Part shown: positions 24,690-48,978 of the stretch, in pieces
Numbering within the stretch: position 1 is the stretch's first letter
How the letters are laid out: the number at the start of each line of letters is the position of its first letter
Source of the DNA: a virus
IMG/VR virus record: IMGVR_UViG_3300042563_002243
Coordinates: 1 to 50,633 of that record
Reading direction: 5' to 3' (one strand)
DNA: 50,633 nt
Program-made: the position numbers and the translations under genes
The notes under the pieces: generated by a model
Database searches by the model: none
The model's input: only the letters and a program-made list of their open reading frames with translations
Told to the model about the DNA's origin: nothing

Positions 24690-24913
24690 GTATTGAGGTA
24701 GATGTTTTGAGTGAAGTATACACTATCCTGAAGCAGTATATTCCTGCCAAGGACAGACAGGAAGCTGCTGACAATTTGTTGAGTGTCATGGTGGATATGT
24801 TGGGTGATCAAGAACTCAAGGAGTTCAGTGCAGCTGATGCAGCACTAAAAAGATCGTTTAAGCAATATGCGGATGACGAGTTGGATTCCGACGACGAAGA
24901 CGACGAATATTGA
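24686..24913 (+). CDS. Small acidic protein downstream of UvsX
   Basis: 75 residues; ATGA overlap with uvsX. Helical N-terminus (VDVLSEVYTILKQYIPAKDR), a second helix (ADNLLSVMVDMLGDQ), and a very acidic C-terminus (DDELDSDDEDDEY). From memory short proteins of this type often follow uvsX in cyanophages; no function is assigned. The acidic tail could mimic DNA or bind UvsX or gp32 (inference). The next gene starts with GTG 4 nt after its stop. Confidence 0.6.
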   Translation: MSIEVDVLSEVYTILKQYIPAKDRQEAADNLLSVMVDMLGDQELKEFSAADAALKRSFKQYADDELDSDDEDDEY

Positions 24914-24917
24914 TTCA

Positions 24918-26168
24918 GTGAAAGAAAAACGGTTCTTCCCGATCCAGTCAAGTACTGCATGCCAGAGTAAATGGGCATGGAGTTCTTTATTTCTTAATAG
25001 GGGAACCAGCCACTCGTGCCACCGCGCCAGCACCAGCAAGCTAACTGTAGACAACTTCTATAATTTTCATAATACTGATGTAAAAGTCAATGATCGACTG
25101 TTGATGCTGTCTGGAAAATGGCCCACTGGCGGATGCACTTATTGCAAAAATATAGAGACCAGTGGTGGATTTAGCGATCGTATGCTGCACAACACCATCC
25201 CTGATCTATATCCTGCAGAATTAGATGCGGACATCAACAGCACAGTGGTGTCTCCCACCATATTGGAAGTATTCTTTGATAGCACCTGTAATCTTTCCTG
25301 TGTATATTGTGGACCTGAAATCAGTTCTAAAATAGCAGACGAATATCGTAAATTTGGTGCTTTTGACCAACATGGTGTTCAGTTGATACCGGCCCCAGCT
25401 ACCAACACCGCAGAGTTACAGCAACAGTTTTGGTTATGGATGCAGACCAATTTTCGTTCATTAAAGCGGTTTCATTTTTTGGGTGGTGAACCGTTCCTAC
25501 AAAAAGAATTCGGCACTTTGTTGGAATTTATAGAAGCCAACCCTAACCCTGATTGTGAAATAAACTTTATCACCAACCTCATGTTGCCACATGGTAGATT
25601 TGCAGAGCAAATTGACAGAATTAAATCACTGGTGGCACGACGTAAATTAAAACGCCTGGACCTGACTGCCAGTATAGATTGCTGGGGACCAGAGCAGGAA
25701 TATATACGCCATGGTCTGAAGTTGGATCAATGGACACAGAATTTTGAATATTTGCTGAACCAACGTTGGATTAAGTTGCAGATCAATCAAACTATATCCA
25801 GCCTAAGCATCAAGGCCATGCCTGATTTATTGGTAAGGTTGGAACAGTGGAATAAAGTCAGACCAGTGGGACATTTCTTCAGTGTGACTGAACCAGGCCC
25901 CAGTTACCTGCGCCCCAATATATTTGGTCCTGGTGTATTTGACAAGGACTTCGATATCATATTATCATTGATGGGCAATGGTACTGACCAGGAACGCAAT
26001 GCTATTAAGTACATGACTGGTATAGCAAATGAAATTGAAAACAGCAGTATCAACGAACAAGAAATCAAGAAGTTATTTGTATTTTTACATGAAAACGATC
26101 GCCGTAGAAACACCAATTGGGAAACTCTTTTCCCTTGGTTAATGGAATTCCAACAGCATGTGGTATAA
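24918..26168 (+). CDS. Radical SAM enzyme 1 (phage type with an N-terminal Cys cluster)
   Basis: 416 residues starting at GTG 24918 (read as Met-KEKRFFPIQSSTACQSKW). The longer ATG frame would run inside the preceding gene and was not chosen. An N-terminal cysteine set (C15, C34, C73, C76) precedes the radical SAM cluster C124-x3-C128-x2-C131 (CNLSCVYC). Further motifs: FLGGEPFLQKEF (GGE motif, SAM binding) and NFITN-type beta strand. Phage enzymes of this family usually modify peptides or nucleic acids, but the substrate is unknown. The gene lies between uvsX and uvsY and overlaps uvsY by 11 nt. Confidence 0.8.
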   Translation: MKEKRFFPIQSSTACQSKWAWSSLFLNRGTSHSCHRASTSKLTVDNFYNFHNTDVKVNDRLLMLSGKWPTGGCTYCKNIETSGGFSDRMLHNTIPDLYPAELDADINSTVVSPTILEVFFDSTCNLSCVYCGPEISSKIADEYRKFGAFDQHGVQLIPAPATNTAELQQQFWLWMQTNFRSLKRFHFLGGEPFLQKEFGTLLEFIEANPNPDCEINFITNLMLPHGRFAEQIDRIKSLVARRKLKRLDLTASIDCWGPEQEYIRHGLKLDQWTQNFEYLLNQRWIKLQINQTISSLSIKAMPDLLVRLEQWNKVRPVGHFFSVTEPGPSYLRPNIFGPGVFDKDFDIILSLMGNGTDQERNAIKYMTGIANEIENSSINEQEIKKLFVFLHENDRRRNTNWETLFPWLMEFQQHVV

Positions 26169-34943: not shown

Positions 34944-36104
34944 ATGAATGATATCAAATCCATTGGGTTCGCACTGGACCCCACCAGTTCTCCCAGTTTT
35001 TTATTGGACTGGGAGTTGACCAGACTCTGTAACCTAAACTGCACTTATTGTGGTGATGGTCCTGAGGGAGGCCACGACAACAGCACACAACATCCACCAT
35101 TGGCTGAGTGCCTGGCATCAATTGATTTTATGTATCAATATGTATCAGAATACATGCGATACAAGCGGCCCACTCAGCGTAAAGTGGTGTTAAATGTTTA
35201 TGGTGGAGAAAGTTTATTCCACCCTGACATTGTGCAGATACTGCAGGCATGTCGTGATCGACATGCACAATACAAAGATGCATGGCATCTGACCATCACC
35301 TGCACCACCAATGGCATAGTGGGAACCAGACGTTGGACTGAGATTGTGCCGCTGATAGACGAATTTACAGTGAGTTATCATGCTGAGAGTTTGCCTAAAC
35401 AACAGCAACAGTATCGTGACAATGTGCTGTATTTGAAACGGCAGGATCGTCGATTTAAATGTGTCATCATGATGCATAATAATCCAGTACACTGGCAGGC
35501 TGCCATGCAGACAGTGGAATTTTGTCAGACCCATGGACTGCGTCACATACTCAAACCTCTGGACAATTGGACACCAGGTTGGGAATACTCTCCCGATCAA
35601 TTTGATGTTTTGAAGAATCAGTGGACTCAGGGAGTAAGTCCCCTGAGACGATTGGATTACAAGAAGTCCATGTCAGACGTAGGTCAAGATTCCAAGCTCA
35701 GTATACAGGAAGGTCGTCCTTGCTGTGGCGGCAGAAAGTTATCACTGAATAATGATTTAAAATCCAGCGTGACGTTCGTGCCGCGACAGGGATTTACTGG
35801 TTGGAGTTGCAGTGTCAATTGGTTCTTTCTGTTTGTGCATCAACAGACTGGATTGGTATATACCAATAAAGACTGTAAGATGAGTACAACAAATCGCATG
35901 GAACCATTGGGTTCATTGACTGATGCTGATGTTATCATTAATACTGTATCTCAGCAGTTATCCACTGGCACCATGCCAGTTATAATCTGCGCCAAAGATA
36001 TATGCAGGTGTGGATTTTGCGCTCCCAAGGCAGAAAGTTCAGAAGATTTTTTTAATTTGATCGACAGACACGTCACTTCAGACGTATTTGCCAGATCCAA
36101 ATAA
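34944..36104 (+). CDS. Radical SAM enzyme 2
   Basis: 386 residues; ATG 4 nt after the tRNA-Cys CCA. The cluster C29-x3-C33-x2-C36 (CNLNCTYC) is close to the N-terminus, followed by VVLNVYGGESLFHPDIVQIL (GGE motif, about 74-90) and a CTTNG strand (about 116-120). The C-terminal part has many cysteines (GRPCCGGRK, GWSCSVNW, NKDCK, CAKDICRCGFC), like a SPASM/twitch region that binds auxiliary iron-sulfur clusters. Substrate unknown. SPASM-type enzymes often modify peptides. tRNA-like genes flank both sides. Confidence 0.82.
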   Translation: MNDIKSIGFALDPTSSPSFLLDWELTRLCNLNCTYCGDGPEGGHDNSTQHPPLAECLASIDFMYQYVSEYMRYKRPTQRKVVLNVYGGESLFHPDIVQILQACRDRHAQYKDAWHLTITCTTNGIVGTRRWTEIVPLIDEFTVSYHAESLPKQQQQYRDNVLYLKRQDRRFKCVIMMHNNPVHWQAAMQTVEFCQTHGLRHILKPLDNWTPGWEYSPDQFDVLKNQWTQGVSPLRRLDYKKSMSDVGQDSKLSIQEGRPCCGGRKLSLNNDLKSSVTFVPRQGFTGWSCSVNWFFLFVHQQTGLVYTNKDCKMSTTNRMEPLGSLTDADVIINTVSQQLSTGTMPVIICAKDICRCGFCAPKAESSEDFFNLIDRHVTSDVFARSK

Positions 36105-44142: not shown

Positions 44143-45228
44143 TCATTTAATTAAATCACCGACTCGACTCAGAGTCGTTCTCCAATCAGTACCACGTATT
44201 ACGTCCAGTTGATCCAACCAGGCGATCCAACGAACATTACCACCAGTGATATGGTGGCTGAGGTTGATCAAAGAGTCCTTGGCATCTGAATTTGGTAAGC
44301 CGTGCAGATAATCCATGAGCAGTGGCTTGTGTTGTATGGGAAAATTCAACAAGCTCAGTTGATTGGTGCCCAGAGTGTCGCCCTGTATCACCACATGATA
44401 TTCATGATCCTGTGCCCATTGGCATAGTTGATCAAAATACAACACGTTATGTAAGCCAATGGTGACCTGTATGCTTTGTGTAAAGCGGTCGCTGGCATGT
44501 TGTTGATATTCGATCAAATTGGCACTGACTTCGGCCCAGCTGGCCGGATGGCGCACCAGTTCATATACTTCATGAGCAGCATCAATGCTGAACCCTATGT
44601 TTACTTTACGAAATTGGCTCCAGATGGATTTTAGTTCGTCTGTGATGCCAATTGTACCATTGCTGCTGTAGTTTACGGCCACCTGGTGGGCATTGCCTGT
44701 CTTGATGATGTGGTTCAACACATTTATGTGATCCCTGGTCATCAGGGGCTCGCCACCATTGAAGTACAGATTGTGTATACTGTTGGCGTCCATGGTGTAG
44801 ATCAAATTGTTATGCTTGGTGGGTTTAATTCTGAGATCGACCTTTTTGCCCAGTTGAATCTCATCTTCGATCCAGGCACTGCTGTAGTAACTGCTGCACA
44901 TGATGCATTTGAGATTGCAGATGTTGTCACAGTTATAGTCCAGATTTCTCAGCCGAAATTCCACAGGATGCCAGTCGGCCTTGAGATGATTGATGCGCCG
45001 ACTGGACAGGCCAATGCCTTCGGCTCTGATGCAATGTGAGCAGGCAGCCGGCAGTTCTTGTGTATGCAGATATTCCTGACGATTTTTTTCTAAGAATTCG
45101 TGCTGGAAATCAATCTGGTCAGTGGGTTCACTCAGATGGCTGACACAACAATGGCCCAACTGTACTTGATTCTCGTTGACTTTTTGAACGAACAGATTTT
45201 GATATAAATCTGGACAATAGTTTTTCAT
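44143..45228 (-). CDS. Radical SAM enzyme 3
   Basis: 361 residues. N-terminal cysteines (C5, C27, C28, C63, C66) precede the radical SAM cluster C104-x3-C108-x2-C111 (CNLKCIMC). SAM-binding GGE motif in NLYFNGGEPLMTRDHI (about 155-170); VNYSSNGTIGI and IGFSIDAAHEVYELVRHP follow the usual twitch-type pattern. The N-terminal cysteines resemble those of enzyme 1 and the partial enzyme at the right edge, so these are paralogues. Late motif five bases before the ATG. Substrate unknown. Confidence 0.83.
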   Translation of the reverse strand: MKNYCPDLYQNLFVQKVNENQVQLGHCCVSHLSEPTDQIDFQHEFLEKNRQEYLHTQELPAACSHCIRAEGIGLSSRRINHLKADWHPVEFRLRNLDYNCDNICNLKCIMCSSYYSSAWIEDEIQLGKKVDLRIKPTKHNNLIYTMDANSIHNLYFNGGEPLMTRDHINVLNHIIKTGNAHQVAVNYSSNGTIGITDELKSIWSQFRKVNIGFSIDAAHEVYELVRHPASWAEVSANLIEYQQHASDRFTQSIQVTIGLHNVLYFDQLCQWAQDHEYHVVIQGDTLGTNQLSLLNFPIQHKPLLMDYLHGLPNSDAKDSLINLSHHITGGNVRWIAWLDQLDVIRGTDWRTTLSRVGDLIK

Positions 45229-45406: not shown

Positions 45407-46309
45407 ATGAGAAAAATAATCGCGACTCTATTGGTCGCACTGACCTTTTCGGCCCATTCGGCTGAGTATGAATTTGTTATCGCCAATCCACCAGGCAGTG
45501 CTGCCGACACTGTGGGTCGCACTATTGCTGAAGAATACCATCGCCAAACTGGTAATTCCTTGATTTTGGAATATGCACCTGGTGCTGATCACGTAATCGC
45601 AGCCACTAAATTTAAAACCAAAAAATTGGCAGTGAGCTTGGGATCCACCACCATGCACGTCTTCAATCATGTGTATCGTGACAGTATCCCGTATGCAGAT
45701 TCTGATTTCAATATTGTGGGATTTTTGGGTTGGATACCAGCAGTATGGTACACCGCAGCAGACAGTCCGTATAACACCATGCAAGACATTCTGGATTCCA
45801 TGGCCAGTAATAAAAATGTTTTTGTAGGTGTTGATGCATTTGCTGTAGAAGTCAATGTCACCAGTCTGGTCAAGAACAATCCCCATGGCAAACAAATCAA
45901 CATCATCAAATACAAAGGCAGTGCCCAGACATTGACTGATGTGCTGGGCAGACATGTTGATCTGGCCATTGCCAGTGTCAGTGAGTCGATTGTCAGCAAT
46001 GCTGCGGCGGGACGTATCCGCATATTGTCCACATCCAATGATCACCCCATTATGATAAATGGTCGTAGTGTGCCTACATCTGACAAGTTACTGAATGTTC
46101 CACAATTCAATGGAGGATTCATACTGGCTGTTACGCCAGGCGAGTCAGCAGAATTGCAACAATTGCGTAGAGATTTATTAAAAACCATGGCCAGCGATGC
46201 TGTTCGCAACAAGCTCAAGGCCATCAATATCGAGGTCGAGGCCGGAGACACCAGCCAGGCTCGTGAGAAGATATTACAATACCGCCAGCAATTGAGATTG
46301 TTAAAATAG
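45407..46309 (+). CDS. Periplasmic substrate-binding protein, TctC/Bug family
   Basis: 300 residues (family usually 320-330). N-terminal signal peptide MRKIIATLLVALTFSAHSA (1-19), then the mature start EYEFVIANPPGSAADTVGRT, the family glycine-rich binding loop (PGSAADTVGR replaces the usual PGGxxDxxxR). LILEYAPGADHVIAATKF corresponds to the ENRPGAGGxxG segment, IIKYKGSAQTLTDVLGRHVD to the YKGxAPAxxDLxGGxVD segment. Bug proteins bind carboxylates for tripartite tricarboxylate transporters in the periplasm. Phage-encoded copies would be an auxiliary metabolic gene. No transporter membrane genes are nearby, so it must pair with host TctAB or act otherwise. Confidence 0.82.
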   Translation: MRKIIATLLVALTFSAHSAEYEFVIANPPGSAADTVGRTIAEEYHRQTGNSLILEYAPGADHVIAATKFKTKKLAVSLGSTTMHVFNHVYRDSIPYADSDFNIVGFLGWIPAVWYTAADSPYNTMQDILDSMASNKNVFVGVDAFAVEVNVTSLVKNNPHGKQINIIKYKGSAQTLTDVLGRHVDLAIASVSESIVSNAAAGRIRILSTSNDHPIMINGRSVPTSDKLLNVPQFNGGFILAVTPGESAELQQLRRDLLKTMASDAVRNKLKAINIEVEAGDTSQAREKILQYRQQLRLLK

Positions 46310-47421: not shown

Positions 47422-47506
47422 AAACAGTATTGTGGCACAATGGTATATTGAGAAATTGCAGTCGTTCGTACTGGAAAAAGCCGGAATTGACAGTAAAATC
47501 ATTTAA
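47399..47506 (+). CDS. Small overlapping gene, 35 residues
   Basis: ATG six bases after a strong AAGGAG site; overlaps the end of the PP-loop gene by 23 nt in another frame. Peptide begins MQKKFLHRNSIVAQWYIEKL and ends in IDSKII within the promoter spacer, as the 58-residue protein at 36465 ends in VDTKII. The good ribosome site supports translation; no known family. Confidence 0.5.
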   Translation: MQKKFLHRNSIVAQWYIEKLQSFVLEKAGIDSKII

Positions 47507-47515
47507 TTGTATAAT
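47487..47515 (+). promoter_or_regulatory. Conserved-spacer sigma70 promoter, copy 4
   Basis: TTGACA (47487-47492), 17-nt spacer, TATAAT (47510-47515). Drives the metallophosphatase gene. Confidence 0.8.
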
Positions 47516-47554: not shown

Positions 47555-48160
47555 ATGCCAGCAGTATTTCTTGTAAGTGACACACATTTTGGTCACGCTG
47601 GCGTATGTCGCTTCATGCGTAACGACGGTGAGACCAAGCTCAGACCCTGGACTGATGCAGCAGAGATGGATGAAGCCATGGTCGAGCGTTGGAATGAACG
47701 TGTGGGTAAGAACGACAAAGTGTATCACCTGGGTGATGTTGTGATCAATCGCAAGAGCCTGGGTATCATGCGGCGTCTCAATGGCGACAAAGTTCTTATC
47801 CGCGGCAACCATGACATCTTCCGTGATGATGAGTACAGACAGCACTTTCGTGAACTTCGTGCATACCATGTTCTCAACGGCATGATCCTGAGTCATATCC
47901 CGCTACACGAAGCCAGCCTGGGTCGCTTTGGGGTCAACATCCATGGTCACCTGCATGCCAATCGTGTGATGAAGGCCAAGGGCATCAATTATCCCACTGG
48001 CGAAATCATCTACAGTGAAACAGAGATTGACCCACGATATCATTGTGTATGTGTGGAGACCACAGACTTTGCACCTATCCTTTTTGAAGATGTCATCAAG
48101 CGTATTGAAGCAGAAGGTGGTGCAGTGGGATTTAAGAACGGTAACGGACCCACAATGTAA
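47555..48160 (+). CDS. Calcineurin-like metallophosphoesterase
   Basis: 201 residues. All family motifs present: D9-T-H11 (SDTHFGHAGV), G60-D61, G84-N-H-D87, H114 (SHIPLH) and H130-G-H132 followed by a third His (GHLHANR). Two metal ions are expected. Phage members act as nucleotide or polynucleotide phosphatases; the exact substrate is unknown. Strong AAGGAGG ribosome site and an early-type promoter. Length is typical of small phage members. Confidence 0.85.
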   Translation: MPAVFLVSDTHFGHAGVCRFMRNDGETKLRPWTDAAEMDEAMVERWNERVGKNDKVYHLGDVVINRKSLGIMRRLNGDKVLIRGNHDIFRDDEYRQHFRELRAYHVLNGMILSHIPLHEASLGRFGVNIHGHLHANRVMKAKGINYPTGEIIYSETEIDPRYHCVCVETTDFAPILFEDVIKRIEAEGGAVGFKNGNGPTM

Positions 48161-48163
48161 TGC

Positions 48164-48193
48164 TTGACAGCAGTGTAGCAGAAATGCTATACT
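48164..48193 (+). promoter_or_regulatory. sigma70-like promoter for RNA element K
   Basis: TTGACA (48164-48169), 18-nt spacer, TATACT (48188-48193). Predicted start about 48200, just before the left arm of element K. Confidence 0.78.
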
Positions 48194-48206: not shown

Positions 48207-48498
48207 TTAGTATTAAAGTTTGAGCACAAGCCAGGGCAGCTTCTGTTACCTGTGGTAGATTGAGTACAGACAGCCCTGAAAGGGGATTGCATCATACCGC
48301 CGTAAAATTTTAATTTCGGATACTTCCGAGGCGGTTGGGATATTTTATAGTCTGGAAAGAGTGCGAGATTCCCGGGAGAGGAACATCTAATGCCTGATGC
48401 AGGTGTAGTGGATGTTCACCATTAGACACTATGACGATAGTGTCGTGCAAGGGTCCACGGTTGAAAAACAGATTTATGTGCTCAATCTTTAGTACTAA
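48207..48498 (+). ncRNA. Large structured RNA element K
   Basis: 292 nt closed by a 22-bp stem with one mismatch (48207-48228 with 48477-48498). Interior: CAGGGC/GCCCTG enclosing TCTGT/ACAGA and TACC-TGT-GGTA; ACCGCC/GGCGGT enclosing TCGGA-TACT-TCCGA; GAACATC/GATGTTC with TAATG in its loop pairing to CATTA outside (pseudoknot); GACACTAT-GACG-ATAGTGTC. Own promoter upstream, tRNA-Leu 12 nt downstream. No coding frame. Does not show RNase P, tmRNA or 6S signatures. Confidence 0.65.
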
Positions 48499-48510: not shown

Positions 48511-48594
48511 GCCCTGGTGGTGGAATGGTAGACACGCTAGTCTTAGGAACTAGTGGAGAAATCCGTGGGAGTTCGAGTCTCCCCTGGGGTACCA
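48511..48594 (+). tRNA. tRNA-Leu(TAG)
   Basis: 84 nt class II; acceptor GCCCTGG/CTGGGGT, anticodon arm CTAGT-CTTAGGA-ACTAG, CCA encoded. Confidence 0.92.
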
Positions 48595-48605
48595 AAGTTT
48601 TAATT

Positions 48606-48693
48606 GGGTAGTTGGCTGAGAGGTCGAAGGCAGCGGCTTGCTAAGCCGTCCACCCGAAAGGGTGCATAGGTTCGAATCCTATACTACCCGCCA
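48606..48693 (+). tRNA. tRNA-Ser(GCT)
   Basis: 88 nt class II; anticodon arm CGGC-TTGCTAA-GCCG, variable arm CACCC-GAAA-GGGTG, CCA encoded. Confidence 0.93.
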
Positions 48694-48789: not shown

Positions 48790-48978
48790 ATGACATCGCA
48801 TCAAGCAATAGTAGACGCAGTAGACGCATACACAGCAGAACAGAACAAGTTCGAATCAGGTAATAGTGCAGCAGGTACTCGCGCTCGCAAGGCTCTGGCA
48901 GAATTGGCCAAGGCCGTAAAAGCTCGTCGTACAGAAATTACCGATACCAAGAACGCACGTAAAGAAGCCAAAGCGTAA
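48790..48978 (+). CDS. Small histone H1-like protein
   Basis: 62 residues, AAAGGAA ribosome site. Ala/Lys/Arg-rich helical protein: HQAIVDAVDAYTAEQNKFES, then GTRARKALAELAKAVKARRT and a Lys-rich end. The AAGTRARKAL.ELAK pattern is one I recall from small phage and bacterial histone-like proteins annotated as Hc1/H1-like. Probably binds nucleic acid (inference). It ends 8 nt before tRNA-Asn. Confidence 0.65.
   Translation: MTSHQAIVDAVDAYTAEQNKFESGNSAAGTRARKALAELAKAVKARRTEITDTKNARKEAKA

Follow-up and report, generated by a model that had tools for sequence, protein, structure and literature searches.

The stretch of viral DNA analysed here (hereafter the window) comprises the 50,633 nucleotides of IMG/VR record IMGVR_UViG_3300042563_002243, in which ARAGORN finds 31 tRNA genes and whose terminase has jumbo phages, Pseudomonas phage PA5oct and relatives, as nearest named isolates (54% identity). 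Towards its 3' end a region without a gene lies between a sigma70-type promoter and two tRNA genes (Table 1). A phosphoesterase gene at 47555 lies upstream, with a perfect sigma70 consensus promoter ahead of it (TTGACA-17-TATAAT, 12/12, 47487–47515), and a 62-aa histone H1-like protein (Hc1, 48790–48978; >570 relatives in IMG/VR) is encoded after the tRNAs.

Table 1. Features of the RNA element, its surroundings and tmRNA* loci of related phages (window positions unless a contig, L number, is given).
Feature	Position	Strand	Observations
sigma70-type promoter	48164..48193	+	TTGACA-18-TATACT, TG before -10; 11/12 match
Structured non-coding RNA, whole element	48207..48498	+	fold z = -6.9; homologues in 23 other contigs; covariation
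H1, closing helix, 5' strand	48208..48228	+	20 pairs with 48477-48497; 9/11 counted core pairs changed on both sides
H1, 3' strand	48477..48497	+	pairs with 48208-48228; same both-sides changes
H2 hairpin	48230..48240	+	6-7 nt loop (GUGGCG / UUGACA / CAGGGCA across members); stem covaries
H3 and H4, 5' strands	48242..48255 (H3 48242-48246; H4 48248-48250, 48252-48255)	+	partners in 48455-48472
GAGUA strand	48262..48266	+	opposite GAAA 48355-48358; AGUA in 13/16 A1 rows
H5, 5' strand	48267..48271	+	pairs with 48350-48354; 5/5 pairs changed on both sides among relatives
H6 around H8, the most conserved hairpin	48297..48334 (H6 48297-48301/48330-48334; H8 48316-48329)	+	H8 is UCGGAUACUUCCGA
H9 and variable domain inside	48371..48453 (H9 48371-48373/48451-48453)	+	6/6 columns changed on both sides among relatives
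Putative H-type pseudoknot	48381..48424 (48381-48387/48411-48417 and 48388-48392/48420-48424)	+	in variable domain closed by H9
Hairpin GACACUAU/AUAGUGUC	48425..48444	+	in variable domain; folding prediction; sequence not conserved
tRNA-Leu(UAG)	48511..48594	+	first tRNA downstream, probably same transcript; Rfam scan/ARAGORN; same order in L106, L282, L292, L294
tRNA-Ser(GCU)	48606..48693	+	
tmRNA* loci in related phages	L056:1450-1874, L061:1471-1855, L069:1369-1790, L081:1039-1460		ARAGORN

A preliminary description of this DNA had read the region as a structured non-coding RNA outside the known families, with its own promoter and possibly in one transcript with the tRNA, a reading that the present analysis supports. 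The promoter is strong, as stated there: a score this high occurred in none of 500 shuffles of the 62 bases upstream of the element. No open reading frame of 50 aa or more lies inside it (the longest have 26 aa on the plus and 46 aa on the minus strand), in agreement with the absence of a gene noted before, and comparison of family members did not reveal a long conserved frame. The predicted fold has an energy of -108.4 kcal/mol, compared with -75.4 +/- 4.8 for dinucleotide shuffles, none of 200 being as stable. The two ends do pair, over 20 pairs with one mismatch instead of the 22 bp originally given. An Rfam scan and covariation among homologues had been named beforehand as checks. The scan gave no match to Rfam 15, either at the gathering cut-off or at E up to 10, in line with the earlier remark that signatures of RNase P RNA, tmRNA or 6S RNA could not be recognised. 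A group I or group II intron was discarded, there being no Rfam match and the element sitting between complete genes.

The window RNA had no BLASTN match among 50,697 phage records, and two relatives used as queries gave either none or short weak matches in coding regions of Staphylococcus phages. With the single window sequence, nhmmer retrieved L106 (E = 4.7e-5) and L105 (E = 2.7e-4) over nearly the full length; both repeat the window order of phosphoesterase, promoter, RNA and tRNA-Leu(UAG). Conserved stretches employed as search patterns (GTCCRCGGTTGRAAARCAGATTT, AATWTCGGRTRYTYCCGARG, GGTCCACNGTCGAAAAGCAGATTTT and RGTTGTAAAGYAGATTTT) together with profile searches produced a family on 24 IMG/VR phage contigs, several of them 100–350 kb long, with 19 distinct full-length sequences of 265–304 nt and a core identity to the window copy of 59–84%. 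Members that had not contributed to building the profile also obtained high scores (L302, E = 1.9e-51; L265, 6.5e-41; L314, 4e-38), and shorter or divergent relatives containing the H6/H8 module occur at L033:4670-4870, L035:4650-4865 and L277:2010-2375. The 80 loci reached through the neighbouring phosphoesterase gene gave no homologue by BLASTN; the profile later found L033 and L035 there, at the same position. In these two contigs the RNA directly follows the phosphoesterase gene, behind a terminator-like hairpin and with no adjacent tRNA.

Several candidates were rejected. The initial DNA pattern, GRGAGGAACATCTAATG, was taken from the variable domain, and its 23 matches were due to chance; L278, L283, L288, L290, L293, L297 and L299 matched a pattern and lacked the rest of the RNA; and L304–L313 were chance matches of a scan in which L314 was the sole new member. 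Across 84,980 bacterial and archaeal genomes, pattern scanning yielded two chance matches only. Among 50 related phage records a covariance model (R1) found copies in at least 2, with effectively a single copy in each family-bearing record; these counts are lower bounds, as R1 was built from trimmed cores and scores the long-insertion clade poorly, and as the records are fragments. The same search detected no copy in four named isolates (PA5oct, Phosso, Atu_ph07 and Vibrio phage 2.275.O). Given its presence in 2 of the 50 related records, the gene for this RNA belongs to the accessory complement of large, uncultured phages. No description of the family was found in the open literature, and one may exist elsewhere.

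To derive the consensus fold, members were cut at conserved, hand-placed anchors, variable loops were removed and pairs were counted in the resulting alignment of 16 sequences (A1). The core comprises 50 pairs in 9 helices, with 95.3% of cells paired and both-sides changes at 33 pairs. When the 3' letters were shuffled (500 times) 80.5% of cells were paired and 19.3 pairs showed both-sides changes, and when partners were slid by 1–3 columns these values were 33–41% and 5–11 pairs; the covariation score of the core was 0.488, against 0.203 in 500 shuffles. Because the anchors of A1 had been placed by hand, RNAalifold was also applied to the full sequences in their unedited MAFFT alignment, where it independently gave H1, H2, H3, H4, H8 and H9; of 47 pairs, 31 were compensated. 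The top matches of an unguided column scan fell chiefly in H1, H2 and H9. Covariation among homologues is thus very strong, both by the A1 count and by RNAalifold, and indicates that the fold is kept by matching mutations while the sequence has changed. That this is a real structured RNA family can be regarded as virtually certain. A chance fold in a spacer, hard to reconcile with the z value of the window copy, is refuted by the covariation over 16 sequences and deserves practically no credit.

One position of H4 (A1 columns 34/124) occurs in all four Watson–Crick types (UA, AU, CG, GC), H3 changes from GC to AU in L279 and L314, and H5 is rewritten in most members. In H6 4/5 pairs covary, and in H8 nothing varies apart from a single pair, altered on both sides. 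H4b, of three pairs, is the least secure helix, with weak support (62.5% paired). Long conserved unpaired stretches are also present (GUCGAAAAGCAGAU, AUCUGAUAC and UUGCUAGAUU), and the GAGUA/GAAA pair of strands resembles, and may form, a bulged-G (sarcin-ricin) motif. An apparent, passing resemblance of GAUAC..GGUAG..GUCCAC to the 790 loop of 16S rRNA was set aside. The internal helices announced in the preliminary description hold as far as a multi-helix core is concerned, with 9 helices counted; several of the minimum-energy helices, such as CAGGGC/GCCCUG, are unsupported by covariation. By the energy model alone the window copy would adopt another inner fold (-108.4 vs -96.7 kcal/mol with the consensus helices forced) and H2, which has only 2–3 pairs there, is not favoured; the minimum-energy fold of the window core is misleading.

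The pseudoknot described earlier has both of its pairings in place, GAACAUC/GAUGUUC and UAAUG/CAUUA, and its evidence is weaker than was claimed, so that it is plausible only. The arrangement was matched or beaten in 5 of 200 shuffles of the window domain. Similar arrangements formed by unrelated sequences occur in L276 (9/200 shuffles) and L282 (5/200 shuffles), the same search and shuffling gave no conspicuous result for L294, L106 or L292, and most members with a short domain have nothing resembling a pseudoknot. From these comparisons a pseudoknot appears likely in the window copy; as a feature of the whole family it is not proven.

The members occupy several genomic settings. Promoters matching at 11–12 of 12 positions lie 16–24 nt before the 11-bp core of H1 in the window and in L106, L292, L282, L294 and L265, so that transcription should begin at the extended H1 or immediately ahead of it. 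In L284, L286, L291, L295, L296 and L298 the RNA begins 1–3 nt past a tRNA-Ser. A tRNA follows the RNA after 1–15 nt in eight members; it is tRNA-Leu(UAG) in the window, L106, L282, L292 and L294 and tRNA-Thr in L284, L291 and L296. In the window the interval to tRNA-Leu(UAG) is 13 nt and contains no terminator, which, with the recurrence of the order RNA–tRNA-Leu(UAG) in the other four contigs, supports the shared transcript proposed at the outset. Altogether 13 of the 19 full-length members have a predicted tRNA no more than 110 nt away. For L279, L280, L301, L302 and L303 the 1.5 kb read to each side revealed no tRNA, and the tRNA is therefore a frequent, not an obligatory, neighbour. The genes directly downstream vary (tRNA-Leu, tRNA-Thr, a DctP-like gene and others), and no partner gene is strictly linked to the RNA.

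The position between promoter and tRNA-Leu(UAG) in the window, L106, L282, L292 and L294, with no terminator in between in the window, is what would be expected of a cis-acting 5' leader of the tRNA operon, whose fold protects, times or antiterminates the transcript and has no role after cleavage. However, in the other clade the RNA follows tRNA-Ser and occupies a mid-operon or terminal position, L279, L280, L301, L302 and L303 have no tRNA in the 1.5 kb read to each side, and the same elaborate core is present in every setting; a leader is thus unlikely. A stand-alone RNA is favoured over a leader or cis-regulator because several settings share the fold, the downstream genes differ and H1 closes the element. 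Judged from the sequences, the RNA probably acts in trans as such a stand-alone molecule, freed by tRNA processing.

Starting from the observed family, fold, promoters and placement in or near tRNA clusters, the following course may be proposed. The window transcript would start at its own sigma70 (host-type) promoter, a few bases before H1, and continue into tRNA-Leu(UAG) and tRNA-Ser. Host RNase P, in cleaving the 5' end of the tRNA, would then leave a compact RNA of about 290–310 nt closed by the 20-bp H1, and where a member lies inside a tRNA operon, processing at the 3' end of the tRNA-Ser ahead of it would define its 5' end instead; we infer these processing events, and with them both ends of the RNA, from the positions of the genes. 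Once folded, the RNA would most likely have a structural role in trans, being produced alongside the phage tRNAs during the takeover of translation, and its candidate partners are a protein, the ribosome, the RNA itself as an oligomer, or another RNA. A more far-reaching version, in which the family is a class of phage RNA that is itself active (as a catalyst, by binding ribosomes or by self-assembly) and is expressed together with the phage tRNAs to remodel host translation, is tentative and somewhat doubtful.

A compact fold, the long conserved unpaired stretches and the adjoining tRNAs could also be those of a ribozyme or tRNA-processing RNA, for instance a strongly diverged RNase P-like RNA of the phage with the phage tRNAs as its substrates. 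Against it, no RNase P model of Rfam matched at E up to 10, inspection by eye does not reveal the universal sequence elements of RNase P, and a gene for the RNase P protein is present in 0 of 17 family-bearing records (the search was positive in 10 control genomes), although a host protein could serve; such an RNA is quite improbable. The same absence from the 17 records led to the rejection of a phage RNase P protein as partner. Own promoter and intergenic position would equally suit a small RNA pairing with host or phage mRNAs; what is conserved, however, is the whole multi-helix fold and not a short seed, and so much structure is unusual for RNAs of that kind, which makes this possibility very improbable.

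Returning to the stand-alone RNA, it can be compared with RNAs already known. The stable RNAs C and D of T4 (species 1 and 2) are likewise non-tRNA RNAs of a phage tRNA cluster and differ in size, at ~120–140 nt; the BLASTN result for the window RNA, with no sequence match in the 50,697 phage records, bears on this comparison. Stable housekeeping RNAs (tmRNA, RNase P RNA and 6S RNA) are of similar size and have paired ends, whereas the new RNA, in the window and in relatives, has no match to them at any threshold used. For tmRNA, with its tRNA-like domain and tag ORF, both ARAGORN and Rfam were negative at the window element, and ARAGORN does report a tmRNA in some related phages.

By context rather than by model match, the RNA resembles most closely the phage tRNA-island RNAs GOLLD and ROOL. 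ROOL is much larger than 265–304 nt. At gathering the GOLLD and ROOL models had no match in the window and 12 relatives, and in four members none at E<=10, 5 or 1. Both are structured RNAs of phages and prophages: GOLLD, of unknown function, is often found near tRNA islands, is often >800 nt long and forms a 14-mer cage, and ROOL, with no known function, lies near tRNA islands and has multiple pseudoknots (PMC12286853). The likeness consists in phage genomes, tRNA islands and an elaborate fold (PMC12286853, compared with the new RNA); the new RNA does lie on phage genomes beside tRNA genes, with a fold backed by covariation. It differs from GOLLD in having about a third of its size and no match to its model, and from ROOL in the latter's size and multiple pseudoknots and, again, the lack of a model match.

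As GOLLD and ROOL illustrate, phages retain large RNAs of unknown function next to their tRNA genes. The present family, a real and previously unlisted non-coding RNA gene of large uncultured phages that is usually found beside tRNA genes, adds one that is absent from Rfam 15. It offers a defined core backed by covariation, transcription that in part starts from recognisable host-type promoters, and diverged sequences on about two dozen contigs. Its small size permits routine probing, mutagenesis and structure determination and thereby brings the question of what tRNA-island RNAs do within easier reach of experiment.

Some neighbouring genes carry hints on the hosts. A TctC-type solute-binding (receptor) protein is encoded by the phage in the window (45407-46309), genes of DctP type adjoin the RNA in relatives (L280:6124-7080 and L280:4176-5183) and a Porin_4 (Gram-negative porin) gene lies near it on another phage contig (L291:8330-9499); these genes may point to Burkholderiales-like hosts. 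The tmRNA* genes of related phages, so flagged by ARAGORN, have a tag ending in VKAESFAV and lie a few kb upstream of the same phosphoesterase gene. Three radical-SAM-like genes occur among or near the tRNAs of the window (44143-45228, 34944-36104 and 24867-26168), one of which, when scanned, matched Radical_SAM just below the curated cut-off. In several relatives a gene whose product starts with MNQ/MSQ..KIxWLIAHEP is found about 300 nt downstream of the RNA.
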